A model generated the notes under the pieces. The model searched no databases. It had not been told where the DNA came from and saw only the letters and a program-made list of their open reading frames with translations. From the IMG/VR virus record IMGVR_UViG_3300045806_000063, positions 1 to 64,000 of that record: DNA of 64,000 nucleotides. One strand, given 5' to 3'. This stretch comes from a virus. The position numbers and the translations under genes are program-made. Of the stretch, positions 4,731 to 36,860 are shown piece after piece (within the stretch, counting starts at the first letter, position 1; every line of letters begins with the position of its first letter).

Positions 4731-4830
4731 TATTCAAATAATTTTCAAACATACATTATCTAGATGAGATTACTAAATAGTGATTCTTAAGTAGTCATTC
4801 TTTTAATGACAAATTTGTTAGGAGACGGAA
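4731..4830 (+). repeat. Promoter-leader repeat, copy 1 of 6
   Basis: This is about 100 bp shared almost base for base with copies at 7428, 19603, 26372, 31179 and 36214. Order: an AT-rich block beginning TATTCAAATAATTTTCA, the core ACATACATTATCTA (4749-4762), a conserved leader with GTCATT-CTTTT-AATGAC able to form a 6-bp hairpin, then the ribosome site GGAGA just before the ATG. The core resembles phiKZ early promoters. Unlike the other copies it has no palindrome upstream; it faces the divergent polymerase gene. Confidence 0.85.
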
Positions 4831-5259
4831 ATGAACACAGATCGTAGCACGTCCGCAGTTGTTGGTCAGATCGTCAGTCAGATTGATCTGACCTCATCGG
4901 TGTCAATCTCAGAGCAAGTCGATGCTCTGATTACGGCACAAAGTCCGGCCAAGCTAATGGGTGGTATGATCATGGAGAGCATCAAACCATCTCCGTCATG
5001 GGCAGGAAAGAATGTTCTCTGCCAGGGAGACTGGCCTCTAACAGCCACTCACGCCGTGAGTTGTGTGAGCTACAACCGCGCATTCGGTAATAGGGAATAT
5101 GGCCCGGATGTAACGTTCTTTAACTCTGAGGAGGAGTTAGAGGAATGGATGGTTGAGACTGCTCAATGGCGGGCAGACGGAGACTGGGAAGTCTCCGTGC
5201 ACGCAACGGTCTACGAGTGGGATCTCGGCCCCCGCCCACTGGGGACGCGCTACCCGTAG
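4831..5259 (+). CDS. Early cassette protein, 142 residues, unknown
   Basis: The only gene of the first cassette, it runs from the shared leader to a T-run terminator. The product is soluble and acidic, with a Ser/Thr-rich N-terminus, a middle part rich in Trp, and a C-terminus with several aromatic residues. No family is recognised. Base use differs from the structural genes nearby, being richer in G and C (for example GGCCCGGATGTAACG). The coding strand holds several exact hairpins, at 4864-4893 (9 bp), 4909-4930 (7 bp), 5047-5061 (6 bp) and 5177-5198 (9 bp). Its position suggests an early protein that modifies the host. Confidence 0.65.
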   Translation: MNTDRSTSAVVGQIVSQIDLTSSVSISEQVDALITAQSPAKLMGGMIMESIKPSPSWAGKNVLCQGDWPLTATHAVSCVSYNRAFGNREYGPDVTFFNSEEELEEWMVETAQWRADGDWEVSVHATVYEWDLGPRPLGTRYP

Positions 5260-5264
5260 TCTAT

Positions 5265-5300
5265 AAAAAATAACAGCTTCCACAGTGTTATTTTTTTTTT
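5265..5300 (+). terminator. Intrinsic terminator of cassette 1
   Basis: AATAACA pairs with TGTTATT across a 10-nt loop, extended by flanking A and T runs and leading directly into ten T at 5291-5300. This is a classical hairpin plus U-tract. Confidence 0.8.
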
Positions 5301-5336
5301 ACATTTTATGTTTATTTAATTTGTTAAGGAAATAAC

Positions 5337-5864
5337 ATGCCGTCCAAATCATTAAAGCAGCATAAGTATATGGAGTTTGTAGCCTATGGCAAGGAGAATG
5401 CCACAGAGGCAGAGAAAGCTATGGCTAAAGAGTTCCTAGATGCCGATAAAGCCGCAGGAAGATACCAACTAGGTTATGCGGGGATTGTGGCTATGATAGT
5501 AGAGGAGGATAGTAAGATAGTCCTCCTATGGCATAATAAGGCCGACTGCTGGACATTCCCTACTGGTAAGATTGAGGATGATGAAGCTGACTATGAAGCA
5601 GTAGAACGTGAAGGTAAGGAAGAGCTAGGCATAGAAGTTAAAGGTACTAAAATGCTAGGGTCTATAACTATTGAAGTTAAACCCCATGACAACCTTACGT
5701 TTCATGTATATAAAGTTACCAGTTATAATGAAGAAGTAAAGAATAAAGAGCCTCATAAACACGCAAGGCTCAAAAAGGTGACTAAGGTAGAGTTGAAAGC
5801 TATGGCTAAACAAGACACTGCTTCAGAACTAATTAAACAAGCAATAGAAAAAGGATACCTGTAA
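5337..5864 (+). CDS. Nudix hydrolase
   Basis: This 175-residue protein has a complete Nudix box (GX5EX7REUXEEXGU): G77, E83, R91-E92, E95-E96 and G98, in FPTGKIEDDEADYEAVEREG and the following KEELGI. Nudix enzymes hydrolyse a nucleoside diphosphate linked to another group; the substrate here (modified NTP, ADP-ribose, NAD or capped RNA) cannot be read from sequence. An N-terminal helical extension of about 45 residues precedes the fold. AAGGAAAT is the ribosome site. The stop overlaps the next ATG (TAATG), so it is coupled to the metallopeptidase. A second Nudix gene lies at 19703. Confidence 0.88.
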   Translation: MPSKSLKQHKYMEFVAYGKENATEAEKAMAKEFLDADKAAGRYQLGYAGIVAMIVEEDSKIVLLWHNKADCWTFPTGKIEDDEADYEAVEREGKEELGIEVKGTKMLGSITIEVKPHDNLTFHVYKVTSYNEEVKNKEPHKHARLKKVTKVELKAMAKQDTASELIKQAIEKGYL

Positions 5865-7114
5865 TGTTAGAGTTTAGCATAGGTAATGAAAGTATTGATC
5901 ATCAGATAAATTCTAAATTAGGACCACGACTTGAAGAAGCGATTAGAGAACTTAAAACATCATCTGTTGTATCTGAAACAAAGTTAAATGAATCCCCATT
6001 AGCCAAGGTCATTAAAGAAGAACTCGGGCTCATTGTGGAATTTGTTGCAGATGAGGGATTAGGTGCATGGGTACTAGTTCCAGATCTAAACCATAATAAT
6101 GTTTTAATGAATAAATTTCGTAAGCAATACTTCAAAGATGCAGATAGTTTAGCATTGTTAGAAACAGCAGACTTCCTAGAAGGAACAATAGATCTTAGAA
6201 CTGGTAAAGTGAGTGGTGATTTCGCTAAGGTTAAATCGACTATCGGCCTTGGAAATGAGGTAATAGGTAAAGCTTCAATTTTTACAGTACCTGAAATAAC
6301 TGGTATCCTGTTACATGAAATTGGACATATCGATACATACCTTGAATTACTTGGTAGATTCATAAAAACCAGTAATCTTCTCGATGATGCAGTCAGCAGA
6401 CTGCTTAAAGCCACAACAAAAGAACAGCGTACTGTGATTTTATCTGAAGTAGAAAAAGCTACCAAAACTACCATAGATAAGAAAGATGAGATAGCAGAAA
6501 AAGCAAGGACTGCAGAAGCTTACGCTGTAGTTATTTTAAGTCAAGCTATCAAACAGTCAAAACAAGAACTGGATGTGAATATCTATGATGCCAGAACATG
6601 GGAGCAGTTAGCTGATCAGTTTGCTGCAAGGTATGGTTATGCGGTTCCGTTAGTTACTGGATTAGATAAAATACATAGACTCTACGGGAGTCATCAATAC
6701 CGCTCACCAGGTTGGAATATTTTTTGTGAAATATTTAAACTATTAGGTTTCATTCTTATGGGTCTGTCTAGTTACGGACTTCAGTGGATAGTAATACTAC
6801 TGGCAATAGGTAATCCTATAGCCGAAATGTATGACCCTCCTAAAGATAGATTCAGAAAGATTAAGCAACAGCTTAATGATGCCCTTAAAGATAAGGATTT
6901 ACCAGCTGCTGTGAGACAAAAGCACTTAGATGATTTTAAAATCATCACTGAAGTTATGGATAAAATGTATGATAACGAAACTGTTTATAATTTCATATGG
7001 AGCACCTTATTCCCTTGGGGTAGAAAACAGGCTAAGTCAGTTAGAGAGTTTCAGGAAACTGAAGCACTCTTGAATAATGATCTTTTTGCAGCAGCAGCTT
7101 TAGTAACCGTATAA
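5864..7114 (+). CDS. Membrane-bound M48-like zinc metallopeptidase
   Basis: This 416-residue protein has HEIGH at residues 151-155, matching HExxH, and EQLADQFA at 247-254, matching the downstream ExxAD motif that supplies the third zinc ligand in M48 (HtpX/Ste24-like) peptidases. A hydrophobic stretch at about 288-320 should form one long or two short membrane helices after the catalytic part. The C-terminus is helical. The catalytic set looks complete. It is coupled to the Nudix gene by TAATG, and the tRNAs follow. A membrane protease could process phage or host envelope proteins; the substrate is unknown. Confidence 0.65.
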   Translation: MLEFSIGNESIDHQINSKLGPRLEEAIRELKTSSVVSETKLNESPLAKVIKEELGLIVEFVADEGLGAWVLVPDLNHNNVLMNKFRKQYFKDADSLALLETADFLEGTIDLRTGKVSGDFAKVKSTIGLGNEVIGKASIFTVPEITGILLHEIGHIDTYLELLGRFIKTSNLLDDAVSRLLKATTKEQRTVILSEVEKATKTTIDKKDEIAEKARTAEAYAVVILSQAIKQSKQELDVNIYDARTWEQLADQFAARYGYAVPLVTGLDKIHRLYGSHQYRSPGWNIFCEIFKLLGFILMGLSSYGLQWIVILLAIGNPIAEMYDPPKDRFRKIKQQLNDALKDKDLPAAVRQKHLDDFKIITEVMDKMYDNETVYNFIWSTLFPWGRKQAKSVREFQETEALLNNDLFAAAALVTV

Positions 7115-7182
7115 GTTAGTTGCGCATGAGGTATATTTTATTTAATTGACTTAATCAATCATTTGAGTGAAAGAAAAAACAA

Positions 7183-7259
7183 GGGCCTTTAGCTCAGCTG
7201 GTTAGAGCTTCCGACTCATAATCGGCAGGTCGTAGGTTCAAGTCCTACAAGGCCCACCA
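7183..7259 (+). tRNA. tRNA with CAT anticodon (Met, or Ile2 if lysidine-modified)
   Basis: A 77-nt cloverleaf with encoded CCA. The acceptor GGGCCTT pairs with AAGGCCC, the D-stem is GCTC/GAGC, the anticodon loop is CTCATAA, and the T-arm is GTAGG-TTCAAGT-CCTAC. Pair 27-43 is a T/C mismatch. The sequence alone does not separate elongator Met from tRNA-Ile2. Confidence 0.93.
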
Positions 7260-7267
7260 GTATACAA

Positions 7268-7352
7268 CTGGATGTGATGAAATAGGTAGACATTCGAGAC
7301 TTAAAATCTCGTGGCGCAAGCCGTGCTGGTTCGATTCCAGTCATCCAGACCA
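7268..7352 (+). tRNA. tRNA-Leu (TAA)
   Basis: An 85-nt class-II tRNA with acceptor CTGGATG/CATCCAG and encoded CCA. The anticodon arm is CGAGA-CTTAAAA-TCTCG (TAA), the long variable arm has GGC-GCAA-GCC, and the T-loop is TTCGATT. It begins 8 nt after the first tRNA, so the two are processed from one transcript. It would help read the TTA codons frequent in this genome. Confidence 0.93.
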
Positions 7353-7361
7353 ATTAGAAGA

Positions 7362-7398
7362 TTACACCCAGAGCACCTTTAAGGTGCTCTGGGTGTAA
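7362..7398 (+). terminator. 18-bp stem hairpin after the tRNAs
   Basis: Two 18-nt exact arms surround a single central T in TTTAA. It ends the Nudix-peptidase-tRNA unit and immediately precedes promoter-leader copy 2. It has no T-run. Confidence 0.75.
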
Positions 7399-7427
7399 CT
7401 CTACCGTCAGTTCATTTTAATTAATAG

Positions 7428-7527
7428 ATTCAAATAATTTTCAAACATACATTATCTAGATGAGATTACTAAATGGTTTTCTTAAGTGGTCATTCTTTTA
7501 ATGACAAAGTTGATAGAGGATAAGATT
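7428..7527 (+). repeat. Promoter-leader repeat, copy 2 of 6
   Basis: Same layout as copy 1. In this copy and copy 5 the middle of the leader reads ATGGTTTTCTTAAGT rather than ATAGTGATTCTTAAGT. It ends in AGAGGATAAGATT before the ATG. The frame upstream of the ATG is open, but it runs through the conserved leader, so the start at 7528 is preferred. Confidence 0.85.
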
Positions 7528-8256
7528 ATGAGAAACAATAAAATGAAAAAATTAATAAAGTATATGACATCTGCCATGGCAGATGAGTCGGTTAAGGCTG
7601 AAGCAGTGGAAGCTGCTAAAGCCGTGGAAACCATGGAAGACCTAACTGGCCAGGCTGTAGCTGGTCTTTTGCTCATCTTGAAGGAGGATGTACAAAAGAT
7701 TAAAGTTAAGGTATCCGTGAGGGAGGTGGTACGGATAGCTATGAAGATCGCGGCTATCCAGCCCACTTGGACGCCTGACCTCCAACAGAAAGTAGGAGAG
7801 GTCTTGAGTGGAGTATTTGATGATTCCCTGGCAGAGCGGTTAGGGAGTTATGCGAACGGAGGTACTAATGTACAAGCAACCCTAATGGGTCTGTACGATA
7901 GAATTCTGAAAGACCTGGAAGGAACTATCCCTGATAAGCTCCACGATGGACTGACTGAAGTTAAACCATATCTCATCCCAGCGCTAGTTGCTGCGGATGA
8001 GATAATCACAGAGAACCCAAAAGTGTTAGCAATTCTTTTGGAGAAGTTACAGGCTCCAAAGGTTAAGCCTAAATCTAAACAGTCGGGACTATTCTCACGC
8101 TCCACCCGAACATCCACCTCAGTAGACATCTTCGGTGATGATGAGGATGGTGAGGATGAGCACACTGTAACTAACAAAGGGAGAGGGAAAAACCCCTATG
8201 AGGGTTCAATAAATGGGGCCGGTATCGTATGGGATTTTTACGGTAGACCGGATTAA
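7528..8256 (+). CDS. Early cassette protein, 242 residues, unknown
   Basis: The single gene of cassette 2. The N-terminus is basic, residues 20-170 are mostly helical, and the C-terminus is Ser-rich, then acidic (DIFGDDEDGEDEH), then Gly-rich, ending in aromatic residues. No family is recognised and no membrane segment is seen. The coding strand contains an exact 18-nt palindrome at 7566-7583 and a long hairpin at 7970-8003 (9 bp plus 4 bp with one bulge). The ATG follows AGAGGATAAG, as in the other cassettes. Confidence 0.65.
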   Translation: MRNNKMKKLIKYMTSAMADESVKAEAVEAAKAVETMEDLTGQAVAGLLLILKEDVQKIKVKVSVREVVRIAMKIAAIQPTWTPDLQQKVGEVLSGVFDDSLAERLGSYANGGTNVQATLMGLYDRILKDLEGTIPDKLHDGLTEVKPYLIPALVAADEIITENPKVLAILLEKLQAPKVKPKSKQSGLFSRSTRTSTSVDIFGDDEDGEDEHTVTNKGRGKNPYEGSINGAGIVWDFYGRPD

Positions 8257-8268
8257 GTTGAAATGAAA

Positions 8269-8304
8269 TAGATAGCCACAGTGATAAGTCACTGTGGCTA
8301 TCTA
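8269..8304 (+). terminator. Terminator of cassette 2
   Basis: A 16-bp stem closes a TAAG loop, and a T-rich tract follows with eight T at about 8325-8332. It ends the cassette 2 transcript. Confidence 0.75.
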
Positions 8305-8374
8305 CCTTTACTTTCTATTTCTTATTTTTTTTGTTTTGAATCTTATGTTTAAATTCATCTTAGGGGATAGGGTA

Positions 8375-10627
8375 ATGTTGCGACTAAAATTAAGAGTAAG
8401 TGATAGGCCAGAAATACATCATTCGGGGTTTATCAATGAGTTTCTCGTTGGGAAAAATACAAAAGAGAGAGTAGAGATTTTAGGTATTGTGATAGGTCTT
8501 GGTTTGCCATTAGGATCACACAATCCGGTTGTAAAAGATTATAACGCAGTATGTCAGGAATTTGATATCAAATTCCGTATTGAAATTATTAATTTACTGA
8601 ACAAACTAAAAGAAGGAAATCTAATATTTCCAAATGAGCCAATTTTAAATATAGCCAGATCCGTCTATGCGTGTAGACTTTCTATGGACAAATATAGTTT
8701 AGCTCAGATATTTGTTACTTTTACCCATCTTACTAAAGAGGGTTTACTTGGTACATTTATAAATTATAAAAATACGGAACATGTTACTGATGATTTATTG
8801 TTAAATCGGCTGCATGTTCTAAACCTCACTGTATGGGATCTCATTGACCGTGAAGTTGATATCTTCGATACAAATACTTTTCTAAAGGAACTAGATAAAA
8901 GTATTGATCGTATCAGTGCAGAACCTAGTGTTAGCCCGGACTTTAGTGTTGATGTCCCATTACCACTTTGGAGGAAAGCTATTACAACGGCTCGTGATTC
9001 TTTAGTTAATTTAAAGAATGGACAATTCGATTATATTGATGAGGACTACGCATTGCTACTGGTAATATTCCTGGTAGATGCTTTAAGTAGACAGAATCAG
9101 TCTGATACCATCGCCGTTATTGCATATAGTAAAGTCTTTGTAGAAGCGGTATCTAAATTGCAACTGTATGATCATTATGACAATGCTGAAATACAAATAG
9201 GCTGTGAAGACCTGAATGTGGCTGGGGATGAGGAACTGGTTTTTTTCTCTGATGGAGTCGAGGGCATCCTAGAAGAAAGAAAACTCGACAACCTAGCAAG
9301 AACTATGGTTAACACCATCAAAGAGTTTAAGTCAGACAGTAATGAAATGAAAGAATTACTTGCTAATGAAGAGTTTGTGGGCGTGGAGGATTATAAAGAA
9401 GTAGTGCAGAAAATATTAGCATTACTAATGACCCATATAAATAAGTTAGTGCCAGCATTTGCCATACTGATATTAGGGATAATCGCATATCTTTTAAATA
9501 GAGAAAAGGCCGAACCAATTGCATCGAAAGCCCAGAAAGCATACGATGATAAAGTAGCTACTATTGAAAAGAAATATAGTCACCCGCCTAGTATGGCTTC
9601 GTTAGGCATAAATACTACAGAATCCGCTAAGTCATTATCTGCTATGATTGCAATGTATGGCACTGACCTAGACGTTTATATTTTGTCTGAGAATCCTAAA
9701 TATAAAGTCAGTGCACTTCAAGATACACTGATGGCACATGTAGAAGCTTCACATGAAATCATAAAAGATTTAAATCTAATGGTAGATGAGTATAAGTCAA
9801 TCTGTCAGCAGGTTATGTCTCCTGACTCTATCACTCCGATTATATCAAAAATTGAAGAACTCTACCTAAAGGATGATTTTCATCTACTATCCTATACTCT
9901 ATCGCCACTGTATGATTTTGTGAAGAAGGCAGGTGGACAGACTCCGGCTTCAAGCCCAGCATATGAAAGTGTAACTAAAGTAGTTAATTTTTCATCTGGC
10001 CCAGGTGATGCATTCTGGAGAGGACGAGCGCACTATAACAATGATAAACCAGCTCTTAGCATTGGAGCAACCCTACGGCCATATAGTGGCTTGAATGGCA
10101 AAGGTACACAAAGACATGGGATACTTGAAGATATTAAACGAATGGGTTCTTTTAATATCAGTAAACTTGATAAAGAAAAAGCATCAGTAGAATCTAACAA
10201 GACCGCAGTAGAGCGTATCGTTCGGGATTTGCAAGGTATCTCAACTGCTCTACACCGAACTATCCCTGAAGAAGTACGAAACATGACGGTATGGCCATTG
10301 CCGCCACACGATGCACGAATTAAAGCGAATGAATATTTGTGGAAAAATATTGCTAAGTCTAGAGGAATCTTGAGAGCACATGGTTTGGGTAATTTACCCA
10401 TATTTGATACTGCTGATATTGTCAGTGAACTAATAACTGGGAATACAATGGTATCAAAACTACACGCTATAACGGCAGTAAGTCACTCTGTATTAGATCT
10501 TTGGGAAGTGTTTAAAAGAATAACACAAATTAAAAAGACATATGAAAGACATTACAATATTCTCAGATCTGAACAGGAAGCATATCAGAAAGCATTAGAC
10601 AAATACTACGCCGACGGAGGAGCATAA
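8375..10627 (+). CDS. Large virion or internal-head protein, unknown
   Basis: This 750-residue protein is mostly helical, with one strong membrane-like segment at about residues 356-376 (PAFAILILGIIAYLL). The frame is open further upstream, but those codons run into the terminator stem. AGGGGA at 8362-8367 places the start at ATG 8375. The C-terminal half has long amphipathic helices. No family is recognised with certainty. It stands at the head of a run of head and tail genes, and the next gene follows after 1 base and has a capsid-maturation-type site, so a virion role is likely. The segment FFSDGVEG also contains a Gly-x-Glu site. Confidence 0.5.
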   Translation: MLRLKLRVSDRPEIHHSGFINEFLVGKNTKERVEILGIVIGLGLPLGSHNPVVKDYNAVCQEFDIKFRIEIINLLNKLKEGNLIFPNEPILNIARSVYACRLSMDKYSLAQIFVTFTHLTKEGLLGTFINYKNTEHVTDDLLLNRLHVLNLTVWDLIDREVDIFDTNTFLKELDKSIDRISAEPSVSPDFSVDVPLPLWRKAITTARDSLVNLKNGQFDYIDEDYALLLVIFLVDALSRQNQSDTIAVIAYSKVFVEAVSKLQLYDHYDNAEIQIGCEDLNVAGDEELVFFSDGVEGILEERKLDNLARTMVNTIKEFKSDSNEMKELLANEEFVGVEDYKEVVQKILALLMTHINKLVPAFAILILGIIAYLLNREKAEPIASKAQKAYDDKVATIEKKYSHPPSMASLGINTTESAKSLSAMIAMYGTDLDVYILSENPKYKVSALQDTLMAHVEASHEIIKDLNLMVDEYKSICQQVMSPDSITPIISKIEELYLKDDFHLLSYTLSPLYDFVKKAGGQTPASSPAYESVTKVVNFSSGPGDAFWRGRAHYNNDKPALSIGATLRPYSGLNGKGTQRHGILEDIKRMGSFNISKLDKEKASVESNKTAVERIVRDLQGISTALHRTIPEEVRNMTVWPLPPHDARIKANEYLWKNIAKSRGILRAHGLGNLPIFDTADIVSELITGNTMVSKLHAITAVSHSVLDLWEVFKRITQIKKTYERHYNILRSEQEAYQKALDKYYADGGA

Positions 10628-10628
10628 C

Positions 10629-10976: not shown

Positions 10977-11002
10977 TTAGAGTCTGACTACTACAACTAT
11001 TG

Positions 11003-11039
11003 ATATATCCCTCTCACCCTATGGGTGAGAGGGATATAT
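11003..11039. terminator. 17-bp stem hairpin between converging units
   Basis: Exact 17-nt arms with a 3-nt TAT centre, lying between the ends of genes on opposite strands. It can serve both. There is no clear T-run on either side. Confidence 0.75.
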
Positions 11040-11043
11040 ACTT

Positions 11044-13968: not shown

Positions 13969-13981
13969 AGCTTACTCCTTA

Positions 13982-19556: not shown

Positions 19557-19592
19557 TGAGATACCGGAGCACCTAGGTGCTCCGGTATCTCA
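19557..19592 (+). terminator. Perfect 36-bp palindrome
   Basis: The arms match exactly around CCTAGG. It follows the internal head protein by 5 bases and precedes promoter-leader copy 3 by 10 bases. It has no T-run. Confidence 0.75.
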
Positions 19593-19602
19593 AATATGTT
19601 AT

Positions 19603-19702
19603 TATTCAAATAATTTTCAAACATATATCATCTAGATGAGATTACTAAATAGTGATTCTTAAGTAGTCATTCTTTTAATAGCAAATTAGATTGGAGAATG
19701 AA
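19603..19702 (+). repeat. Promoter-leader repeat, copy 3 of 6
   Basis: Core ACATATATCATCTA at 19620-19633; leader ending in TTGGAGAATGAA before the ATG. The second hairpin arm reads AATAGC here, as in copy 4, instead of AATGAC. Confidence 0.85.
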
Positions 19703-20155
19703 ATGACTACGAATAATAAAATTATAAACGTCAATGTAGCAATGTTGGCGATAGTAAATGCACAGAAAGAGGTACTGTTATTAAATCACATTAAAGGAAA
19801 TCTTTGGGGATTTCCTGGAGGTAAAGTGGATCCCGGGGATACATATGCAGATACAGTCATTAGGGAAACACATGAAGAACTAGGGGTAGTCATCGGTAGT
19901 CGAAACATTTGTAAGATTTGTGATGTTGTATGTCAGTCCGCATATGACGGCGGTGGTACGTATAACACCCGCATATATGAGTTGCTTACTCCAAATAAGT
20001 ATAAACTATCTATTGGCGAACCGCATAAACATAATGAGATGAAATATTTCTCATTGTCAGACATTGGTGAGTTAGAAAAGAAAGGTCTATTACGTGTTAG
20101 TGCAAAAACAGTAATTGCGGCAGTCGTTAAGGCAGAGCCGTTGTTAATTAAGTAG
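19703..20155 (+). CDS. Nudix hydrolase, early cassette
   Basis: This 150-residue compact Nudix domain has the box at residues 40-62: G40, then R54-E55, E58-E59 and G61. The first Glu of the consensus is Asp (D46), a change tolerated in some members. The preceding WGFPGGK is typical of MutT-like enzymes. It hydrolyses nucleoside diphosphate derivatives of unknown identity. I start at ATG 19703 after GGAG; a TTG four codons earlier is less likely because it lies in the conserved leader. An exact 7-bp hairpin lies in the coding strand at 19796-19815. With the gene at 5337, this makes two Nudix enzymes in units with early features. Confidence 0.88.
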   Translation: MTTNNKIINVNVAMLAIVNAQKEVLLLNHIKGNLWGFPGGKVDPGDTYADTVIRETHEELGVVIGSRNICKICDVVCQSAYDGGGTYNTRIYELLTPNKYKLSIGEPHKHNEMKYFSLSDIGELEKKGLLRVSAKTVIAAVVKAEPLLIK

Positions 20156-20177: not shown

Positions 20178-20222
20178 TCCAGGAATGATCACTTGATCAT
20201 TCCTGGATCTATTTTTTTTTTA
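20178..20222 (+). terminator. Terminator of Nudix cassette
   Basis: Exact 14-nt arms (20178-20207) around a short centre are followed by about ten T from 20212. Classical intrinsic form. Confidence 0.85.
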
Positions 20223-26329: not shown

Positions 26330-26369
26330 GCCTATCCCTCCATTCGACTAGTCGAATGGAGGGATAGGC
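26330..26369 (+). terminator. Perfect 40-bp palindrome
   Basis: Two exact 20-nt arms meet at ACTAGT. It ends the tail operon, touches the start of promoter-leader copy 4, and has no T-run. Confidence 0.78.
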
Positions 26370-26371
26370 AT

Positions 26372-26473
26372 TATTCAAATAATTTTCATTTATATATCAT
26401 CTAGATGAGATTACTAAATAGTGATTCTTAAGTAGTCATTCTTTTAATAGCAAATTAGATTGGAGATAAGATT
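26372..26473 (+). repeat. Promoter-leader repeat, copy 4 of 6
   Basis: Same architecture as the other copies. Here and in copy 6 the block before the core reads TTTTCATTTATATATCATC rather than TTTTCAAACATACATTATC. It ends in TGGAGATAAGATT before the ATG. Confidence 0.85.
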
Positions 26474-26671
26474 ATGAGTACAGTAGCTAAAGGGCATGAA
26501 TCACCATTATCTGGCTTTGCGATATGCCAGAAGTATGGTATTTCGGCGAAACGCTTCGCCGAAATAATCACTGAACCGAAATTCCATTTCCCTAAGTCTG
26601 TGGCACAGGGCCCATACGGCGGGTTATGGGACCAACAAGAAGTTGATGAATGGATCCATATGAAATGGTAA
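26474..26671 (+). CDS. AlpA/excisionase-like small DNA-binding protein
   Basis: This 65-residue protein has the layout of AlpA or MerR-type mini DNA-binding domains. A helix-turn-helix (ICQKYGISAKRFAEII, about residues 17-32) is followed by a short wing with FPKSV, and a C-terminal LWDQQEVDEWI that matches the usual rW..eEv..Wi ending. Such proteins are small transcription regulators or recombination directionality factors. As the sole gene of an early cassette next to the DnaB-like gene, a regulatory role is inferred. The helix region is encoded by an exact 12-bp hairpin at 26539-26566. Confidence 0.65.
   Translation: MSTVAKGHESPLSGFAICQKYGISAKRFAEIITEPKFHFPKSVAQGPYGGLWDQQEVDEWIHMKW
26539..26566 (+). 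other. 12-bp perfect hairpin inside the AlpA-like gene
   Basis: TATTTCGGCGAA pairs exactly with TTCGCCGAAATA across a 4-nt ACGC loop, wholly inside coding sequence. No T-run follows, so simple termination is unlikely. Confidence 0.75.
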
Positions 26672-26677
26672 GTCACC

Positions 26678-26730
26678 GGAGCAGTATGCGATTAATCGCA
26701 TACTGCTCCAACCTCTTTATTTTTTTTTTT
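26678..26730. terminator. Perfect 32-bp palindrome plus T-run
   Basis: Exact arms at 26678-26709 meet at ATTAAT, then CTCTTTA and about twelve T. It ends the AlpA-like cassette, and lies just past the end of the converging minus-strand helicase gene, whose stop codon lies near the T-run. Confidence 0.85.
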
Positions 26731-28249: not shown

Positions 28250-28274
28250 TGTATATCCTTTTATTTATTGCAAT

Positions 28275-28287: not shown

Positions 28288-28327
28288 ACTTTAATATTCA
28301 CTAATCATGTTAATGGAGTCAAATGAT

Positions 28328-28801: not shown

Positions 28802-31109
28802 TAAATCTCAATCAAGCATGGGTCGTCAAGCAAAAGAGGCCCTGAAAGCAATTCTCTTGACCCAGACCTCAACCTTTGGTAAGGATGATGTACACGCATA
28901 TCTGGGCCTGGAGTCACTTACCAGCAAAACCAACGAAAAATTATTGATTGACTCTACCAGTCATATCAGTTCATTGCTGAGATCCTCTCCTGAAATTAAT
29001 GCTTATGTGGATCTGATAGCTAAAGGTTGCAAAGGCGTTTATGTCGGTAAAGGTGAAGCTGACACTGCTTTTGGAATGGAAAAGTTACAACAAGACTGGA
29101 AAACTGACACATATGACCGATTAGCAATTTCGGTAATGGCTCAGATGAACCCAGCAAAAACCGTTATGAACTACAACAACATGTGTCCTACTGACACATC
29201 TGCATTAGGCGGCAATTACCATATCCTGAATACTGGCGCTGGTACTTTAGCTTCCTTGTCAAACCCCAAATATTCTCAAGGTTGGGGCTTGGAGTCTTTT
29301 GACCCAGCTACTCATATGGACTTCATTGCGGCTTCCGCATTGATCAACGTAACTGCTACTGTTCCAGGCGCATTTGAAGAAGTATTCTTCCAAGGCATCA
29401 GCTTGCCACCAGGGCAGTCTGGTTTTGACGTAATGGTACAAGTGCCAAAAATCTTGGTTACACGTTTCAGAAACGTGTCATCTGGCGCTGCATGGGATGA
29501 AGAAAAGATTAGCATCGTTCAAGCGGCTTATGATCCATCAATCTTAAGCTCTAACAGTATCAATATCATCCCTATCGTTATTGATGATACCAATCCTCCA
29601 CAACTGGTACCTCAATCAGTTGTTCCTGCCTGGACTGTGAATGTATTGGGTACTGACGTTGAAACCAGACCTATCTTGTTTGGCCCTGAAGTAGGCTTGA
29701 TAGAACTATCCACATTTGGTGCTATTCTGAATAATGGCCAAATGGATGCTACAGATGCACTGTATACTAATGTTGGTGTTCAGGATGTATTTTTCCAAAT
29801 TGACATCAGTGTGGGTACTGCTGGCGTAGGCGATGGCGTCGTAACAACTTCCGCTGTGCTGAAGAATAACGTCACCAGCATAGTTGGTACCTTGCTGCAA
29901 CAAAAGCAAATCGGTCGTGCACAATCATTGCAAACAGTGACCAAAGTTCCTTTATTTGTCACTGAAAACTCCATTCCAGTATCAGGTGCTACCCAAGCTG
30001 AACTGTCAGGCGTTATACAAGCGGCCTTAGGTTTGTCAGCCAGCACTCCTTTTAATCTGAGAGGTGTTTTCACACTGACATCAGAAGCTGATACTGAGAT
30101 TGGCTCAATGATGTGTGGCCAGCTCAACCCTTCCCTCCAAGCGGTTACCGGTACCACTACCTCAGGTATGGAAACTCAGCCAGTGTACAATCTGGCAGCT
30201 CTGAATGGCGGCGCTGGTGCTAGCAAAATTGTCACCACCATTACACCGATTGGCTGGTATCCAAATGCTCGTCGTACCAACTCCAACTTACGTGTCAATG
30301 GTACCATTATTGATGCTAACAACATCGTTAATTACCGGTTACCAATTAACGTATTCCCTCCATTCACTGCACGTACTCCAATTAACCAAACTGATCAAAT
30401 CACATTTGAAACATTGGGTAATGTTACCGCACTTTGGGTATCAGGTCAATGCGTTGATAAATTGATCGAAATGGAAAACTGGCTGGAAACAGTATCTGGT
30501 ACTCCAATGGGTGTAGGTACCATGACTAACCAATGTCCTATCATGGGTGGTGAGTATGTCATTCCAACTCTGCGTACTGATTTGGTTAACATCTATGACC
30601 TGGTTGATAACTGGCAGTCTAAAGATCTGTTGGCTAACATCAGAGCACAATTCCAAGTAACACTGATGTATGCCTCTGCCCAGTTGTACATGGACTCAGG
30701 TTACAGCTCAGCTCTGCAGATGTTACTGCAGGACTTGGACGCATATGAAACTATCGTGGTTACCGATCCATTGATTGCTCAGTTCATGATGGAAGCTGGC
30801 GATATTCGTACTATGGGTGACAACCGTAAATACGTATTCTGCAAAACGAATAATAACAACATTCGTGGCAAAATCTATTACTCTTTCCGTCTGGTTGGCA
30901 GTAGCGATCTGGTACATCCAATGTCTTTCGGTTGCCGTCTCCAGTCACCGAACATCACTTATGAAGTAGTGCCAATGAACCGTGGCGGCGCTAACATCCG
31001 TGAGATTCAATCGATGCCACGTGTGGTACCGTTTGTTAACTTGCCTGTTTTGGGCGTAATCAACGTTGAAGGTTTGTCACAGTTCGCGACTACTGCAGCA
31101 CAACATTAA
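28785..31109 (+). CDS. Major capsid protein (phiKZ gp120-like)
   Basis: A 774-residue protein, close to the length of the phiKZ capsid precursor. The first 170 residues look like a propeptide and contain three Gly-x-Glu sites: YLGLES (39-44), FGMEK (96-100) and WGLESF (167-172). Cleavage after E170 would leave a mature shell protein beginning SFDPATH, at nearly the position where the phiKZ protein is cut. The remainder is beta-rich, as expected for a large HK97-fold capsid. Codon use is clearly biased (CTG, ACC, GGC, CGT), which marks very high expression. A palindrome follows 20 bases after the stop. Identity rests on remembered similarity and layout. Confidence 0.75.
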   Translation: MSILGNKSQSSMGRQAKEALKAILLTQTSTFGKDDVHAYLGLESLTSKTNEKLLIDSTSHISSLLRSSPEINAYVDLIAKGCKGVYVGKGEADTAFGMEKLQQDWKTDTYDRLAISVMAQMNPAKTVMNYNNMCPTDTSALGGNYHILNTGAGTLASLSNPKYSQGWGLESFDPATHMDFIAASALINVTATVPGAFEEVFFQGISLPPGQSGFDVMVQVPKILVTRFRNVSSGAAWDEEKISIVQAAYDPSILSSNSINIIPIVIDDTNPPQLVPQSVVPAWTVNVLGTDVETRPILFGPEVGLIELSTFGAILNNGQMDATDALYTNVGVQDVFFQIDISVGTAGVGDGVVTTSAVLKNNVTSIVGTLLQQKQIGRAQSLQTVTKVPLFVTENSIPVSGATQAELSGVIQAALGLSASTPFNLRGVFTLTSEADTEIGSMMCGQLNPSLQAVTGTTTSGMETQPVYNLAALNGGAGASKIVTTITPIGWYPNARRTNSNLRVNGTIIDANNIVNYRLPINVFPPFTARTPINQTDQITFETLGNVTALWVSGQCVDKLIEMENWLETVSGTPMGVGTMTNQCPIMGGEYVIPTLRTDLVNIYDLVDNWQSKDLLANIRAQFQVTLMYASAQLYMDSGYSSALQMLLQDLDAYETIVVTDPLIAQFMMEAGDIRTMGDNRKYVFCKTNNNNIRGKIYYSFRLVGSSDLVHPMSFGCRLQSPNITYEVVPMNRGGANIREIQSMPRVVPFVNLPVLGVINVEGLSQFATTAAQH

Positions 31110-31129
31110 TCGTTAGTGTTTAATTAGAT

Positions 31130-31167
31130 GTCATCCACCCTCACACCTAGGTGTGAGGGTGGATGAC
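31130..31167 (+). terminator. Perfect 38-bp palindrome after the capsid gene
   Basis: Exact 19-nt arms meet at CCTAGG. It ends the capsid operon and lies 11 bases before promoter-leader copy 5. It has no T-run. Confidence 0.78.
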
Positions 31168-31178
31168 TCTATTACTGC

Positions 31179-31279
31179 TATTCAAATAATTTTCAAACAT
31201 ACATTATCTAGATGAGATTACTAAATGGTTTTCTTAAGTAGTCATTCTTTTAATGACAAAGTTGATAGAGGATAAGATT
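31179..31279 (+). repeat. Promoter-leader repeat, copy 5 of 6
   Basis: Almost identical to copy 2, including the ATGGTTTTCTTAAGT middle, the AATGACAAAGTTGATAGAGG stretch and the AGAGGATAAGATT ribosome region. The frame is open through the leader, as in copies 2 and 6, but the ATG after the ribosome site is preferred. Confidence 0.85.
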
Positions 31280-31891
31280 ATGAACACATACAAAAATATC
31301 TGGGCAATGATTCAGGTGTACACACTCGTACTGCTCGGAGCAGTACGTGCAGTATGGCTGAAAAAGCACAATAAACCAGTAAGACTTGACCAGCTGTTAA
31401 AGCTGGCGTTGCTAAAGGCCATTACACATGACCTCACTACCTTCTGGAAAAGCCCAGAAGGTAGTGAGGTGAATGTTCCAGCCATAGAGCGTTCAGCGGA
31501 TAGCTGGAATGCCAGCTGGGTACAGGCCCTACAAGCGGCAGGCTCCGCAGAGAATAGTCTGGTGGGGGCTAGCATTAAGTTAGCCGACTATCTTGCCGAC
31601 TACTCTACCCATAAGTTGGTCACTTATGGGGAGCTGCAGTACAATCTTAACAATGCAGTGCGGAGGTGTACGCTGGCTAATAAGGCCGAGTTTGATGCTA
31701 TGGGAATGGATATGAGAGTGGTACGACTACCCCACGTCTTATTCCTGGCGTATGTTGAACACCTCAAACAGTCCAGAGATTTCTTCTGGGCCCATGGGGT
31801 GTTGAAGCAAGTAAGTTCTGCGGCGAAGTCCGTGGAGTATCAGCTGTACTTATCTCCTGAACAGAGAGGTACGACTGTAGTAGGTTTATAA
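31280..31891 (+). CDS. Early cassette protein, 203 residues, unknown
   Basis: This single-gene cassette directly after the capsid operon encodes a helical protein with a hydrophobic N-terminal segment (about residues 8-27) followed by basic residues, which may anchor it to the membrane. No family is recognised. The coding strand is unusually rich in exact hairpins: 31327-31347, 31390-31406, 31431-31470 (17 bp), 31502-31517 and 31608-31630. Base use is more GC-rich than the tail genes, as in cassettes 1, 2 and 6. Confidence 0.65.
   Translation: MNTYKNIWAMIQVYTLVLLGAVRAVWLKKHNKPVRLDQLLKLALLKAITHDLTTFWKSPEGSEVNVPAIERSADSWNASWVQALQAAGSAENSLVGASIKLADYLADYSTHKLVTYGELQYNLNNAVRRCTLANKAEFDAMGMDMRVVRLPHVLFLAYVEHLKQSRDFFWAHGVLKQVSSAAKSVEYQLYLSPEQRGTTVVGL
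31431..31470 (+). other. 17-bp perfect hairpin inside a coding sequence
   Basis: Seventeen bases beginning ACCTCACTACCTTC pair without mismatch with a downstream copy across a 6-nt AAAAGC loop, all within the gene at 31280. This is as strong as the terminators in the window but has no T-run and lies mid-gene. Confidence 0.85.
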
Positions 31892-31908
31892 ACCTATTAC
31901 CATATGGC

Positions 31909-31946
31909 AGATAGAGACATTAATGTCTCTATCTATTTTTTTTTTC
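31909..31946 (+). terminator. Perfect 26-bp palindrome plus T-run
   Basis: AGATAGAGACATT meets its exact complement at 31909-31934, followed by eleven T. It ends cassette 5. A further 16-bp palindrome (31881-31896) overlaps the stop codon of the gene before it. Confidence 0.85.
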
Positions 31947-31960
31947 ATCTATCTTTGAAA

Positions 31961-31974
31961 CATATATTATCTAT
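31961..31974 (+). promoter_or_regulatory. Early-type promoter motif ACATATATTATCTA
   Basis: Exact match to the core also found at 43649, here without the long conserved leader. It lies 27 nt before the ATG at 32001 and just after the cassette 5 terminator. Confidence 0.55.
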
Positions 31975-32000
31975 AGGCATTACAGCATAAAAGGAAAAAT

Positions 32001-33068
32001 ATGTTAACTTCTAAAATATCAAAAGACAATAAAGGTATAAAGAGAGAGTATAAAGGTTTGCAGGTAACGACTACTTTTATTAATTACTCTAAGTACCATT
32101 TGGTGATATGTTTTAGGGATGGATGTTATTCAGTTTTATCGCCATCCGATAAAGACCCTTATCAGGATATTTTAATGGTAGGGCACCAAAAATCAAATCT
32201 TAAAGATGGTATTTTAACCGTAGATGGAGTTGAAGATGAAAGACTTATGCACATTAAAGAAAAGCTAAAAGTTAATCATCGGCATGTTGAATGGGAGGAG
32301 TCAATAGATATCAGTTCGTTAGCGGATACAAGGGGGGGAAAGTATATTTATGATTTAGATATCTACATTGGTATTGTGGATAATTTAGATTTTGAACATT
32401 TTCATCCGTTTTCCTTTCAGCATATAACGAACAGAGAATTGAATCCTGGGGTAGAATTTGACCCAAAGACACAAATAAGCTTTACTATAAAAATTGTAGA
32501 TAATGAGTTACCTGGTGTAGATTACTATACAGTAATTAATGATGACATAGTGCATTTAAAAAGCGAACTATCATCGTTTCGCAATAGTGGTTTATACGTT
32601 ATTGGGGTACCAGAGTTAGATACTGTTAAAACAAATAAAATGAGGAAGACAGATAAATACAGTATACCGCAAGCTTTAGAAGGTGTAAGTAAGTTTAAGT
32701 TATTCAAATCAATTGCCGATGCTACTATTTACCTTAATGAAAGAGGTACTTTAGCCTCGGTTAGTAAGCTTGAACTATCAAGGCAGGAGACAAAGAACCT
32801 TGAGATGAAGAAAGCATTGGAACAGTTACAGCATGAGAATGCTTTAATAAATGCAAACAGGTCTAAGACCGAGAATGAACTCAAGTCATATCAGGAGGAA
32901 TATGAGAGAGACTTACAAAATAGGAAGCAGGACTTTGAATTACGAATACAGAAACTAAAAGAGGAAGCAGCTATTGAAACTCAAGTAAATAAGTCTAATG
33001 TTGAGACACTAAAAGTAATAGGAGGAGGTTTAGCTTTGGGCGTATTACTCTTGAAAATATTTTTATAA
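32001..33068 (+). CDS. Tail-anchored coiled-coil membrane protein, unknown
   Basis: This 355-residue protein has a soluble mixed alpha/beta part (1-235), a long charged coiled coil (about 245-325), and a single C-terminal membrane helix (about 336-354) that would anchor it with the bulk in the cytoplasm. The start has AAAAGGAAA upstream. It is the first gene after an early-type promoter and precedes the RNA-polymerase-like gene by 52 bp. The build suggests a membrane-tethering or scaffold protein acting inside the infected cell, but no family is recognised. Confidence 0.55.
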   Translation: MLTSKISKDNKGIKREYKGLQVTTTFINYSKYHLVICFRDGCYSVLSPSDKDPYQDILMVGHQKSNLKDGILTVDGVEDERLMHIKEKLKVNHRHVEWEESIDISSLADTRGGKYIYDLDIYIGIVDNLDFEHFHPFSFQHITNRELNPGVEFDPKTQISFTIKIVDNELPGVDYYTVINDDIVHLKSELSSFRNSGLYVIGVPELDTVKTNKMRKTDKYSIPQALEGVSKFKLFKSIADATIYLNERGTLASVSKLELSRQETKNLEMKKALEQLQHENALINANRSKTENELKSYQEEYERDLQNRKQDFELRIQKLKEEAAIETQVNKSNVETLKVIGGGLALGVLLLKIFL

Positions 33069-33120
33069 TATACAGCCACTATTAATGATGTGATATAACC
33101 TATGTCAGTTTGGAGGCTAG

Positions 33121-34737
33121 ATGTCAAAAGTAGATTTAAACATGCAAAAATGGCTTAATGCCAGAACCCCAAAATTAAATAGAGGTATAGTGGAAGGGTT
33201 ATCACATTTACACTCCCCTAATATCGAAAAATTAATTGAGAGATTATGGGTATGTTCTAGTAAAGGATATCCTCCAGGAATCACGTATGAGGGAGGAAGG
33301 AGATGTACGGCTAAGGAAAGCTTTCTTGAAGTAACAAAATCAAATGCCCCGAATAGAGCATTCGAAATGTCGACATCTGACATGTATTTAATGCGGTATG
33401 ATTTCGCATTTCATGGAGTCCCTCTTAGTCCTAGACATATATTCCTGCCATTCATTAGACCAGGTGGTCTTTTCACTGTCAGAGATACTCAGTATATGGT
33501 AACTCCTGTGATTTCAGGCAGGATCTTTAATATTGAACATGGGGAGATTTATTTACCATCTACTCGATTAAGGATGGGGTTCTGGCAAAAGGAGGTATCG
33601 TGTATTCTTAATGATAGAGAGATCAATAGATCCTCTGTTGGTGGGTATTTGTACTATATACATCCTGATACAAAACGGTCTAAACTAAACCCCTTACTGG
33701 TTCATTATCTTTTAGCTAAGTTCGGTATCGTAGATACTCTTAAGTTTTATGGAGTAAATGCGAAATTAGGCTATCAGGAATTGGATGAATTAGATAAGTC
33801 TGAGTGGTTCGTGTTTAGAAGTAAACAGATGGCAATAAAAAATAGATCAGCTAAGGAGTATCCTCCTACTGAGCTTAGGATTGCTATTTCTAAAGACAGT
33901 TATTATGTCTTGATCTGTGATATCATTGCTAGTATTTTCTATATACTGGATAATGTACTTTGTAATACCTCGGACATTGCTGAATTAGTAAATCCTAATT
34001 ACTGGTTACGGCTACTATACTTCTTCATATTCAAAGAGACTTGTAGTGAAAATAAAATGGTCGAGAAAATGACTAAACATATGGAGTCAATGGAATCGAC
34101 CATTGATGAAATTACAATTGATGGCTTCAAAAGAGCTAATCTAAATTGTACAACAGTGTTTGAGTTATTTAGATTCTTAACAATTAATTTCAATGACCTA
34201 TGCATCCATTACGACTATGGGACTATGTATGATCTTGAGATTAGAACTATTGAACCATTGACTTTCGGTATACGGAAAGACATTACAAATGCGATGTATC
34301 GCTTGCAGAAAATTCCACCTAATAATTTAACTGCAGCTAAAATTAATTTTGTATTATCCCATTCTATTGACCGAGATACAATCCTGTCAGTTAAAGGACA
34401 TGGAGAGCTAGAACCAAGCAGCATTGCATCCACCTGTATGCTCTATGGACCAACTGCTGACATAATAACCTACAGTAAAGCCACTTCATCTGGAGGGGAT
34501 TCACTTACTGATTTAAATGATCCTAACCTATTAATGCATTATAGTCTACTAGAGGTAAGCAGTTATAATGCCTGCACTGGTAAGGAGTTGTCTGGGAGAG
34601 GACTATTAAATCCTCATCAGTCATTTGTACATGGTAATGTTACCAGTCCATCTAAGAAACATGCAGAAAAGTTAGCATTGTTAAATGATCAATTAACTCA
34701 ACACAAAAGAAAACATGAGGCAAAAGAATGCTTATAG
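33121..34737 (+). CDS. Candidate RNA polymerase beta N-terminal-like subunit (phiKZ gp123-like)
   Basis: This 538-residue protein has a strong GGAGG ribosome site. Around residues 107-165 it has FLPFIRPGGLFTVRDTQYMV and then PVISGRIFNIEHGEIYLPS. This recalls the part of bacterial beta subunits where the chain states that a strand is held in place (GxFIxNGxERVxxSQ). In phiKZ a subunit of the non-virion RNA polymerase, gp123, corresponds to the beta N-terminus and is encoded shortly after the capsid gene; the position here matches. No catalytic motif is expected in this part. The call rests on weak similarity plus gene order. Confidence 0.45.
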   Translation: MSKVDLNMQKWLNARTPKLNRGIVEGLSHLHSPNIEKLIERLWVCSSKGYPPGITYEGGRRCTAKESFLEVTKSNAPNRAFEMSTSDMYLMRYDFAFHGVPLSPRHIFLPFIRPGGLFTVRDTQYMVTPVISGRIFNIEHGEIYLPSTRLRMGFWQKEVSCILNDREINRSSVGGYLYYIHPDTKRSKLNPLLVHYLLAKFGIVDTLKFYGVNAKLGYQELDELDKSEWFVFRSKQMAIKNRSAKEYPPTELRIAISKDSYYVLICDIIASIFYILDNVLCNTSDIAELVNPNYWLRLLYFFIFKETCSENKMVEKMTKHMESMESTIDEITIDGFKRANLNCTTVFELFRFLTINFNDLCIHYDYGTMYDLEIRTIEPLTFGIRKDITNAMYRLQKIPPNNLTAAKINFVLSHSIDRDTILSVKGHGELEPSSIASTCMLYGPTADIITYSKATSSGGDSLTDLNDPNLLMHYSLLEVSSYNACTGKELSGRGLLNPHQSFVHGNVTSPSKKHAEKLALLNDQLTQHKRKHEAKECL

Positions 34738-36149
34738 GAGACACTCGTGGTAGAGGTAGTATGAGAGGTACTGTTGAACAAGAAACAGACATTGAACAAG
34801 AGATTTTTGATAATGTCTGCGAAGACTTTAAAGTATCTTCAATGGAGAGAAGACAATTTCAATTACTAGCAGATAAGGAGTATCAAAAACTATTCGATTT
34901 AATATCTCCGTATATTAATGAGAGTAAATGGATAGATCTTGTTAGGATTATAATGCTCAATCTATTAGGGGAAACAATACCGGCCCTTTATGATAAAGAA
35001 TCTAATGACTATGAGCCAGACATCTATACAGCAATGGCAGATCTTGAGAAACTTGTCGATAAGATATCCAACCCAGAACCAGCCAGAAGAGATCTTCGCC
35101 CATCCAACACAGATAGAGGAAGATCATCTCCGTCTACTTTTAGAGGCGGTAGCAGAAATTCGGGCAGAAGAACACAGTCTGCATCAATTAACAATACCCG
35201 GAGAAATAACGACATGTTTGACCCAGACGACCATAGAACACAAGGAGAAACAATTCGGCAGAATACTCCTCCGTTCAAAGCAGGAAAGAATGTAACTGAA
35301 GTAGTAGTTGAAAAACTGATACCAGTAACAGTGCCTGGAATGGTGGATCGTACTGCTGCATTTGATCCTACCATCAGAACTGGGTTAAATGGTGGTGAAT
35401 CCATTGAGTGTTATCAACTGTGTGATATTGGAAGTAACTTTGGCGATTATCCAGTTCTGTATAAGCATTGGGTGGAAGAAAGAATGGCCTATGGTCTTCT
35501 TTCGGTAGATGAGCCAAGTGTGACAGCTATTGAGAACATTTTTAATGAACTTGGAGAAGTAGCTACGATTGATAGACTAGTAGCTTTAATAAAGGAATTA
35601 CAAAGTCATGGAAAGTTGGAGACGGTTTATTGGTTATCCAACCGAATATCTGCACTAGTGTTAGATTATCTTGACACTAAATTTGAAATGCGTGATCAAG
35701 AGTCGTTTCCTCTACTCACTCGTCCAGACGACTGTATAGAGTACTTAAAGGATGCAAATATTCTGGACCAGGTTTCAAAGCTAGTTACTGTGTTTATAAA
35801 TAAGTTATTCTCGAACTGGTATTTCTTCAGATGCGAAACACATGAAGAAGACACAGTTAGTGCTGAGGATAAACTGTCGATTGACACAGTGGTGGTGTTA
35901 AGATATACGGTACCGATTCTAATTCTGCCGTATATCACAAGCTATCAAAGAATATCGAAGACGTTCAAGATACTAACCTCATCAGTAGAGGAAAATGTAG
36001 CAAATTTCTTAGTTCAGAAAGCTTTTGTTAAGATACCCCCTACTGAACATGAGTTATACATTTGTGATAAATCCTATAACCTGTACAAGACTACACGGTG
36101 GATTGATGAGAAGGTCGAAAATATGGAACATGCTATTGTAAAAGCTTAA
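34728..36149 (+). CDS. Protein with disordered Arg/Ser-rich linker, unknown
   Basis: This 473-residue protein has a helical N-terminal domain (about 15-105), an Arg/Ser/Asn/Gly-rich disordered segment (about 115-165), and a helical C-terminal domain (about 215-470). The basic linker could bind nucleic acid. The start overlaps the preceding RNA-polymerase-like gene by 10 bases, with GAGG 7 bases upstream. Coupling suggests the two products work together. An alternative start at 34761 would remove 11 residues. Confidence 0.45.
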   Translation: MLIGDTRGRGSMRGTVEQETDIEQEIFDNVCEDFKVSSMERRQFQLLADKEYQKLFDLISPYINESKWIDLVRIIMLNLLGETIPALYDKESNDYEPDIYTAMADLEKLVDKISNPEPARRDLRPSNTDRGRSSPSTFRGGSRNSGRRTQSASINNTRRNNDMFDPDDHRTQGETIRQNTPPFKAGKNVTEVVVEKLIPVTVPGMVDRTAAFDPTIRTGLNGGESIECYQLCDIGSNFGDYPVLYKHWVEERMAYGLLSVDEPSVTAIENIFNELGEVATIDRLVALIKELQSHGKLETVYWLSNRISALVLDYLDTKFEMRDQESFPLLTRPDDCIEYLKDANILDQVSKLVTVFINKLFSNWYFFRCETHEEDTVSAEDKLSIDTVVVLRYTVPILILPYITSYQRISKTFKILTSSVEENVANFLVQKAFVKIPPTEHELYICDKSYNLYKTTRWIDEKVENMEHAIVKA

Positions 36150-36170
36150 GGAGGTAGCTTAGTTAAGGTA

Positions 36171-36205
36171 AGTGATGGATTCGGCATAGTGCCGAATCCA
36201 TCACT
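36171..36205 (+). terminator. 16-bp stem hairpin
   Basis: Exact 16-nt arms surround TAG. It ends the 32001-36149 unit just before promoter-leader copy 6. It has no T-run. Confidence 0.75.
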
Positions 36206-36213
36206 ATTACCGT

Positions 36214-36314
36214 TATTCAAATAATTTTCATTTATATATCATCTAGATGAGATTACTAAATAGTTTTCTTAAGTAGTCATTCTTTTAATGACAAAATTGA
36301 TAGAGGATAGGATT
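36214..36314 (+). repeat. Promoter-leader repeat, copy 6 of 6
   Basis: The core block reads as in copy 4 (TTTATATATCATCTA), while the downstream leader (AATGACAAAATTGATAGAGG) reads as in copies 2 and 5. Copy 6 is therefore a mosaic of two sub-types. Confidence 0.85.
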
Positions 36315-36860
36315 ATGAACATAGCTGAATTGAGAGATGTCGTTCGTGCCGTTGCAATTGCAGAGACGCAGGCTGATGCCCCCCTGACCTTATACTCCAA
36401 AAATGGGAGTATGGGAGAAGATGACCAAACGGTAACCGTAGATGTATACGGAAAACCGGGTCCAGAAGGAGAAGACAATCCAGCGATCTTCAGCGGAAAA
36501 CCGGACTGCGTAGGGTATGACGCGCGTAGCAATTACGCGCATACTGAGCCATATATAGTGGCCCCCACAGGAAGTATCCATAACTGGGTACAGGATAACT
36601 ATCCAACAGCATTCTGGTACTTGGTGAATTTCAGTACATGGAAACGTTGGGATAGGAATCCTCAGGAACGATGCACTACAGGTGCTTCATTTCGGGTTCA
36701 AGCCGGTATGGCTTCAATCTTTACACTCATTTCGGTGGAGGAGTTCATAGCTACGAATGGCGACACCACCACAGTCAAAATCACCGCAGGTATTGACTGT
36801 GACTGCAGCATCACAGCTGAGACCGTGTATGCAGATAACAACACTTCTAAGACCGATTAA
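36315..36860 (+). CDS. Early cassette protein, 181 residues, unknown
   Basis: The single gene of cassette 6. The product is soluble and acidic, with a Gly/Pro-rich segment at about residues 45-70, a Trp-rich middle (about 88-112) and a beta-rich C-terminal third with a Cys-x-Cys pair (CDCS). No family is recognised. Hairpins in the coding strand include 36392-36412 and GCGCGTA/TACGCGC at 36522-36540. The ATG follows AGAGGATAGG. Confidence 0.65.
   Translation: MNIAELRDVVRAVAIAETQADAPLTLYSKNGSMGEDDQTVTVDVYGKPGPEGEDNPAIFSGKPDCVGYDARSNYAHTEPYIVAPTGSIHNWVQDNYPTAFWYLVNFSTWKRWDRNPQERCTTGASFRVQAGMASIFTLISVEEFIATNGDTTTVKITAGIDCDCSITAETVYADNNTSKTD

Follow-up and report, generated by a model that had tools for sequence, protein, structure and literature searches.

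Unrelated genes behind one shared early promoter and leader: a probable mobile cassette in a distant relative of phage phiKZ

Introduction

Why should one ~100-bp element stand directly before six genes whose products have nothing in common? The question is raised by positions 1 to 64,000 of the IMG/VR record IMGVR_UViG_3300045806_000063 (the window, meaning this whole stretch of 64,000 nucleotides), where an earlier note had described copies of the element at 4731, 7428, 19603, 26372, 31179 and 36214. The record is a complete, 181-kb genome and is circular, since the last 93 bases are the same as the first 93. We think it quite likely that the element, called class A here, serves a phiKZ-family phage as a mobile cassette for early expression: compared with two related genomes, its units have apparently been gained, lost, and refilled, and they resemble plug-ins by which early genes can be swapped. 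Phages of the phiKZ type have to act on their host within the first minutes, through early genes transcribed by an injected polymerase, and a common control element that tags swappable early genes would provide a direct listing of candidate effectors that lack homologues.

Anatomy of the units

All six copies were confirmed, and a genome-wide search for the element raised the number to 11, every one on the + strand, with five beyond the window (94,899; 105,056; 118,173; 132,352; 149,424). The 11 copies are 72-96% identical in pairs over ~110 columns ending at the start codon, so that "nearly identical" had been a slight overstatement; a 1-nt indel sets two sub-groups apart, and there are also a diverged copy (138,849) and a 3' fragment (139,858). 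The upstream third of the element is an early promoter and the remainder a ~65-nt 5' leader with a hairpin. A unit then continues with usually one gene (its cargo) and closes with a palindrome and a T-run, the whole being placed between core genes. The features of the six window units are as follows (aa, amino acids).

4729-4830, +: unit 1 promoter-leader; core ATACATTATCT at 4751-4761, predicted start ~4766, leader hairpin 4794-4810
4831-5259, +: unit 1 cargo, 142-aa orphan; GC 0.54, three strong intragenic hairpins
5265-5301, +: unit 1 terminator-like hairpin and T-run
7362-7398, +: palindrome upstream of unit 2; arms 18, without T-run
7425-7527, +: unit 2 promoter-leader; core 7447-7457, predicted start ~7462
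7528-8256, +: unit 2 cargo, 242-aa orphan; GC 0.46
8269-8304, +: unit 2 terminator palindrome, then T8
19557-19592, +: palindrome upstream of unit 3; arms 18, loop 0
19601-19702, +: unit 3 promoter-leader; core 19623-19633, predicted start ~19638
19703-20155, +: unit 3 cargo, Nudix hydrolase, 150 aa; Pfam NUDIX, E 1.7e-15
20178-20217, +: unit 3 terminator palindrome and T10
26330-26369, +: palindrome upstream of unit 4; arms 20
26370-26473, +: unit 4 promoter-leader; core 26392-26402, predicted start ~26407
26474-26671, +: unit 4 cargo, 65 aa, weak candidate for an AlpA-like winged helix; Pfam AlpA below cut-off
26678-26728, +: unit 4 terminator palindrome and T11
31130-31167, +: palindrome upstream of unit 5; arms 19
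31177-31279, +: unit 5 promoter-leader; core 31199-31209, predicted start ~31214
31280-31891, +: unit 5 cargo, 203-aa orphan; GC 0.49, internal hairpins with arms of up to 17 bp
31909-31944, +: unit 5 terminator palindrome and T10
36171-36205, +: palindrome upstream of unit 6; arms 16
36212-36314, +: unit 6 promoter-leader; core 36234-36244, predicted start ~36249
36315-36860, +: unit 6 cargo, 181-aa orphan; GC 0.48
36875-36945, +: unit 6 terminator palindrome, arms 20; T7 further downstream

Much of what the earlier note had said of this layout held. Units terminate in a palindrome or hairpin followed by a T-run of seven or more (6/6 in the window); five of the six promoters follow a perfect palindrome (at 7362, 19557, 26330, 31130, and 36171), the 4731 copy having none and a divergent upstream neighbor; and the cargoes show no similarity to one another. 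One gene per unit, also claimed, is the usual state, but the unit at 149,445 apparently has two open reading frames (ORFs), and the proposed seat between late structural operons is right for most flanking genes, which nevertheless include genes for DNA polymerase, a DnaB-like helicase, and RNA polymerase (RNAP) subunits. The palindromes on the two sides of a unit differ: a T-run of at least 7 was present in none of the eight detected before class A promoters. Two polymerases that use different terminators may account for this, or insertion between a palindrome and its T-run may. Near-perfect intergenic palindromes close most operons of the window.

A repeat dispersed in many copies could be one end of a mobile DNA element, such as a transposon, a homing element, or something like a miniature inverted-repeat transposable element (MITE), and a 63-bp direct repeat (86% identity) does lie on both sides of the 149,445 unit. 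Transposons and MITEs are recognized by two conserved ends and a target duplication; here only the left part is shared, the repeat stopping about at the start codon and the terminator sequences differing between class A copies, which leaves them without a common right end. All copies point the same way, and scans of family libraries recognized no recombinase or endonuclease among the cargoes. We regard this origin as highly improbable. The palindromes, too, are not shared among the class A copies of this genome, although they are in class B (a second element, described below) and in one relative, G002. A separate oddity of the 149,445 unit is that its first cargo ends in an exact 36-bp piece of the DNA polymerase gene (window 3426-3461) in sense orientation (149736-149771; L013).

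An early promoter of known kind

By its genes, the phage is a distant relative of phiKZ. It has phiKZ-type genes for the major head protein (PHROG), an internal head protein, and a polymerase subunit (PHROG 2943), and its RNAP subunits matched 202 phage records, mostly phiKZ-like, all below 60% identity and at ~25% among the matches listed. As to the two multisubunit RNAPs of such phages, Rpb2_6 matched one ORF (E 9e-10) with a second ORF below the cut-off, and Rpb1_1 was not detected.

Every class A copy contains the core ATAYATYATCT, which occurs 29 times forward and 0 times reverse in this record (28 without the circular-overlap duplicate), compared with 1 forward and 0 reverse for the reversed motif as a control in the same record, and 32 times forward and once reverse in the two relatives. 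The sequence around these cores agrees with the published early promoter consensus of phages OBP and N1M2 (PMC7058600), where the early cores are also nearly all on one strand (14 vs 2 and 16 vs 0, respectively). On this match, the promoter is of the OBP/N1M2 type of phiKZ-family early promoters, and motif identity likewise supports the earlier label of the genes as early. In AR9, phiKZ, and phiR1-37, transcription starts 6 nt beyond the conserved element (PMC5312081), by which the start here is predicted 15 nt downstream of the core's first base.

The promoter bears on whether the units are classical morons: genes acquired separately, each transcribed by the host RNAP from a sigma-70-type promoter of its own and closed by its own terminator. 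The anatomy of the units, their presence or absence between core operons, and their atypical GC content would suit morons. However, no sigma-70-type match was found on the promoter cores tested, for which reason a sigma-70 reading of the promoter was dropped, and the units have a single common control element bearing the phage's early motif; this origin is quite unlikely.

An unusual shared leader

What is unusual in the element is the shared ~65-nt leader, not the promoter. When the 55 nt downstream of predicted starts were compared, 55 promoter pairs of this phage had leaders at least 75% identical, against 0/120 in N1M2 and 0/91 in OBP; the two relatives had 1 and 3 such pairs. The shared leader is absent from the other early genes of this phage and from all those sampled in OBP and N1M2. 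Its exact core had no match in IMG/VR, and a search with CATTTATATATCATCT was set aside, two of its 15 stretches belonging to relative G001 and the others being chance-like.

A six-pair hairpin upstream of the ribosome-binding site is common to 19 leaders from three phages, in the forms GTCATT/AATGAC, GCTATT/AATAGC, and GCTAAT/ATTAGC. In this alignment, 96.5% of cells are paired, compared with at most 51% in slid controls, and 3/6 pairs have two-sided changes; one pair is broken in four copies of this genome. Many leaders have a second possible hairpin at the extreme 5' end. An Rfam scan of the region gave two tRNAs and no other match. The leader hairpin is probably functional, since it covaries and is kept in the relatives.

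A functional leader opens a less mobile account, in which these are ordinary phiKZ-type early promoters, the cargo stays where it is, and the leader is kept alike by selection (on translation or mRNA stability) or by gene conversion. The persistence of the covarying hairpin, a promoter ordinary for the phage group, and the fact that some cargoes are positional orthologues all agree with it. The lack of the leader on the phage's other early genes and on the sampled early genes of OBP and N1M2 does not, nor do the empty sites in the relatives and a joint replacement of leader and cargo in G002, and we consider it possible but doubtful.

Sites in two relatives

Evidence that favors a mobile cassette comes from comparison with two IMG/VR genomes, G001 and G002; searches with the capsid profile and with the RNAP subunit both returned these same two relatives and no others, and their core proteins are ~50% identical to those of the phage. 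The order of the core genes that flank all six window copies is kept in both. Sites 1, 3, and 6 are empty in both, which supports the moron-like presence and absence proposed earlier; site 4 holds another ORF without an early promoter, and site 5 a different gene, dissimilar to the cargo here, behind a different early leader. At site 2, the leader in both relatives belongs to the same family, and the cargo has no clear similarity to ours (local z 4.3 with one and 0.9 with the other; remote orthology is ambiguous here and is not claimed). A single palindrome and a T-rich stretch stand at site 3 in the relatives, where the match to the downstream flank picks up again directly after the cassette's T-run, a layout that fits insertion between palindrome and T-run.

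The leaders themselves bear marks of exchange. Among the 11 copies, all four gametes occur at 154/253 pairs of informative positions (four-gamete test; Rm, the minimum number of recombination events, is 7 in 110 columns); recurrent mutation may be behind part of this, but on this pattern we read the leader alleles as recombinant mosaics. The sole clear case of replacement is G002_94793. Its upstream flank matches that of the same site in G001 at 93% identity, but its leader resembles the site-2 leader of G002 (0.89) more than the leader at the same site in G001 (0.76), and its cargo is unrelated to the G001 cargo there; leader and cargo were replaced jointly, the leader being a copy from a different locus. 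G002 also has a 153-bp copy (89% identity; 6473-6625 and 56363-56515) in which palindrome, promoter, and leader are accompanied by the 3' end of the gene adjoining site 2; the inclusion of that 3' end suggests the direction of copying.

Several points weigh against mobility. The relatives found are two, both at roughly 50% core protein identity, too few and too distant to date donor and recipient. The cargo pair G000_138849/G002_6561 is orthologous (E 2e-4), so some cargoes, possibly including that of site 2, stay put and diverge. Selection on a functional leader could be enough to keep the copies alike without mobility.

Cargo genes

Two cargoes have clear family matches, the Nudix hydrolase at 19,703 and a family-2 glycosyltransferase at 132,455. 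Of the two cargoes named earlier, the Nudix hydrolase stands; the AlpA match of the 26,474 cargo falls short of the Pfam cut-off (15.7 vs 21 bits, E 0.014), and a single-sequence structure model of this 65-aa protein (pLDDT 58, low confidence) was not used. The remaining eight had no confident family in the libraries searched (149,527 was left out of the NCBIfam scan); five orphan cargoes had no match among GenBank phages, and four had none in IMG/VR. Both relatives have a Nudix cargo at another locus, behind the same leader family and weakly similar to the one here. It is plausible that the Nudix and glycosyltransferase cargoes suit a role in host takeover or counter-defense, yet they prove nothing, and the earlier proposal of such roles for the orphan cargoes is a conjecture that the data here do not support.

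Three further observations concern such genes. The closest proteins to the glycosyltransferase (genome 132455-133591) are from Methylococcales (59%), a hint of a methanotroph host. A second Nudix gene (window 5337-5861) is the immediate downstream neighbor of unit 1; it has no early core of its own and is missing at this site in the relatives. One relative's cargo (L037 16360-16890) has an HEEGH metallopeptidase-like motif and no Pfam match.

The class A coding sequences (the eleven cargoes and that at 138,849) are GC-rich, with a median of 0.483 vs 0.375 (p 3e-7), and laden with hairpins. Counting perfect arms of at least 8 with loops of up to 20, in stretches making up about three quarters of the genome, they contain 19 perfect hairpins against 2.2 expected from synonymous codon shuffling, about nine-fold, compared with 5 against 4.5 in other first genes behind early promoters and 80 against 37 in the remaining genes. 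The excess over the rest (p 2e-6; weaker in the relatives, p 0.07 and 0.03) comes from a count prompted by reading these same genes, which are thus no independent sample. Examples are at window 31431-31470 and 26539-26566 and at L013 4644-4671 (genome 149643-149670). This property of the cargo coding sequences is new and unexplained, and its confinement to class A genes is a testable oddity. Leader and coding sequence might together define a special class of early mRNA, with cargoes selected or shaped for internal hairpins that serve, for example, in protection from RNase, in attenuating read-through by the late polymerase, or as sites for a phage RNA-binding protein; this idea is tentative, and we would not bet on it. 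If true, the cassette would let phages trade early effectors through a platform that couples the RNA level with recombination.

Other early elements and repeats

Early promoters of the window also occur apart from class A:

4-118, +: class B composite element; terminator palindrome 4-37, T-run, early promoter core 76-86, leader unlike class A
31962-31972, +: early promoter core directly after the unit 5 terminator (motif search)
43651-43661, +: ordinary early promoter core with an unrelated leader (motif search)

Class B has further copies at 105,585, 118,624, and 150,338, and a ~156-bp repeat that includes its own terminator lies at 150,252 and across the circular junction. Two other repeats were seen: a 54-bp repeat (98% identity) at genome 123760-123813 and 129875-129928, the later copy within the ORF 129469-130053, and, in G002, an inverted repeat of ~325 bp (84% identity) at 52825-53127 and 144159-144474.

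Discussion

The mobile cassette that we favor could work as follows. The injected virion RNAP would begin transcription early in infection, 15 nt downstream of the A that opens ATAYATYATCT, and produce a short mRNA composed of the shared structured leader and usually one accessory gene, with transcription ending at the cassette's palindrome and T-run. The front palindrome would close the preceding operon, so that a unit fits between core operons without disturbing them. Near-identical leaders would offer homology for recombination between loci or between co-infecting relatives, which would swap the cargo or copy the control region. The proposal that these are terminator-promoter-gene-terminator modules with one common control element is supported; it had missed the promoter type, the leader hairpin, the mosaicism of the leaders, and a precedent in T4-type phages.

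Four known systems invite comparison. With the early promoters of phiKZ, OBP, and N1M2, the units share the AT-rich core TTTYARRYAKATATTATYW and the strand bias, but the early genes of OBP and N1M2 lack common leaders. With phage morons, they share the single extra gene that has its own promoter and terminator and is present or absent between relatives (sites 1, 3, and 6); the difference is that one common phage early control element takes the place of independent promoters. The SAS/ESAS elements of cluster K mycobacteriophages, a 13-bp repeat and 17-bp inverted repeats at translation starts (PMC3203893), are similar in being a repeated element with inverted repeats that precedes a subset of genes; they are conserved with gene families and have a proposed role in translation initiation, not as promoters (PMC3203893).

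The closest likeness in function is to the promoter early stem-loops (PeSLs). PeSLs of T4-type phages are repeats of an early promoter and a stem-loop terminator, dispersed between operons, and are reported to shuffle genes between related phages (PMC4503421). Here, too, a composite of terminator stem-loop and early promoter is repeated between operons, and recombination at the element appears to exchange the flanking genes between relatives, as the mosaic leaders and the one clear replacement suggest. PeSLs, reportedly treated by Arbiol (2010) and Comeau (2014), belong to T4-type phages with a host sigma-70-type early promoter, whereas the genes and the promoter here are of the phiKZ family and the repeat includes a structured leader of ~65 nt. 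We do not class the units as PeSLs, because PeSLs are T4-type elements and the promoter class differs, but they appear to work like them, and the view that regulatory repeats can serve as recombination sites would then hold as well for phages that have their own polymerases.

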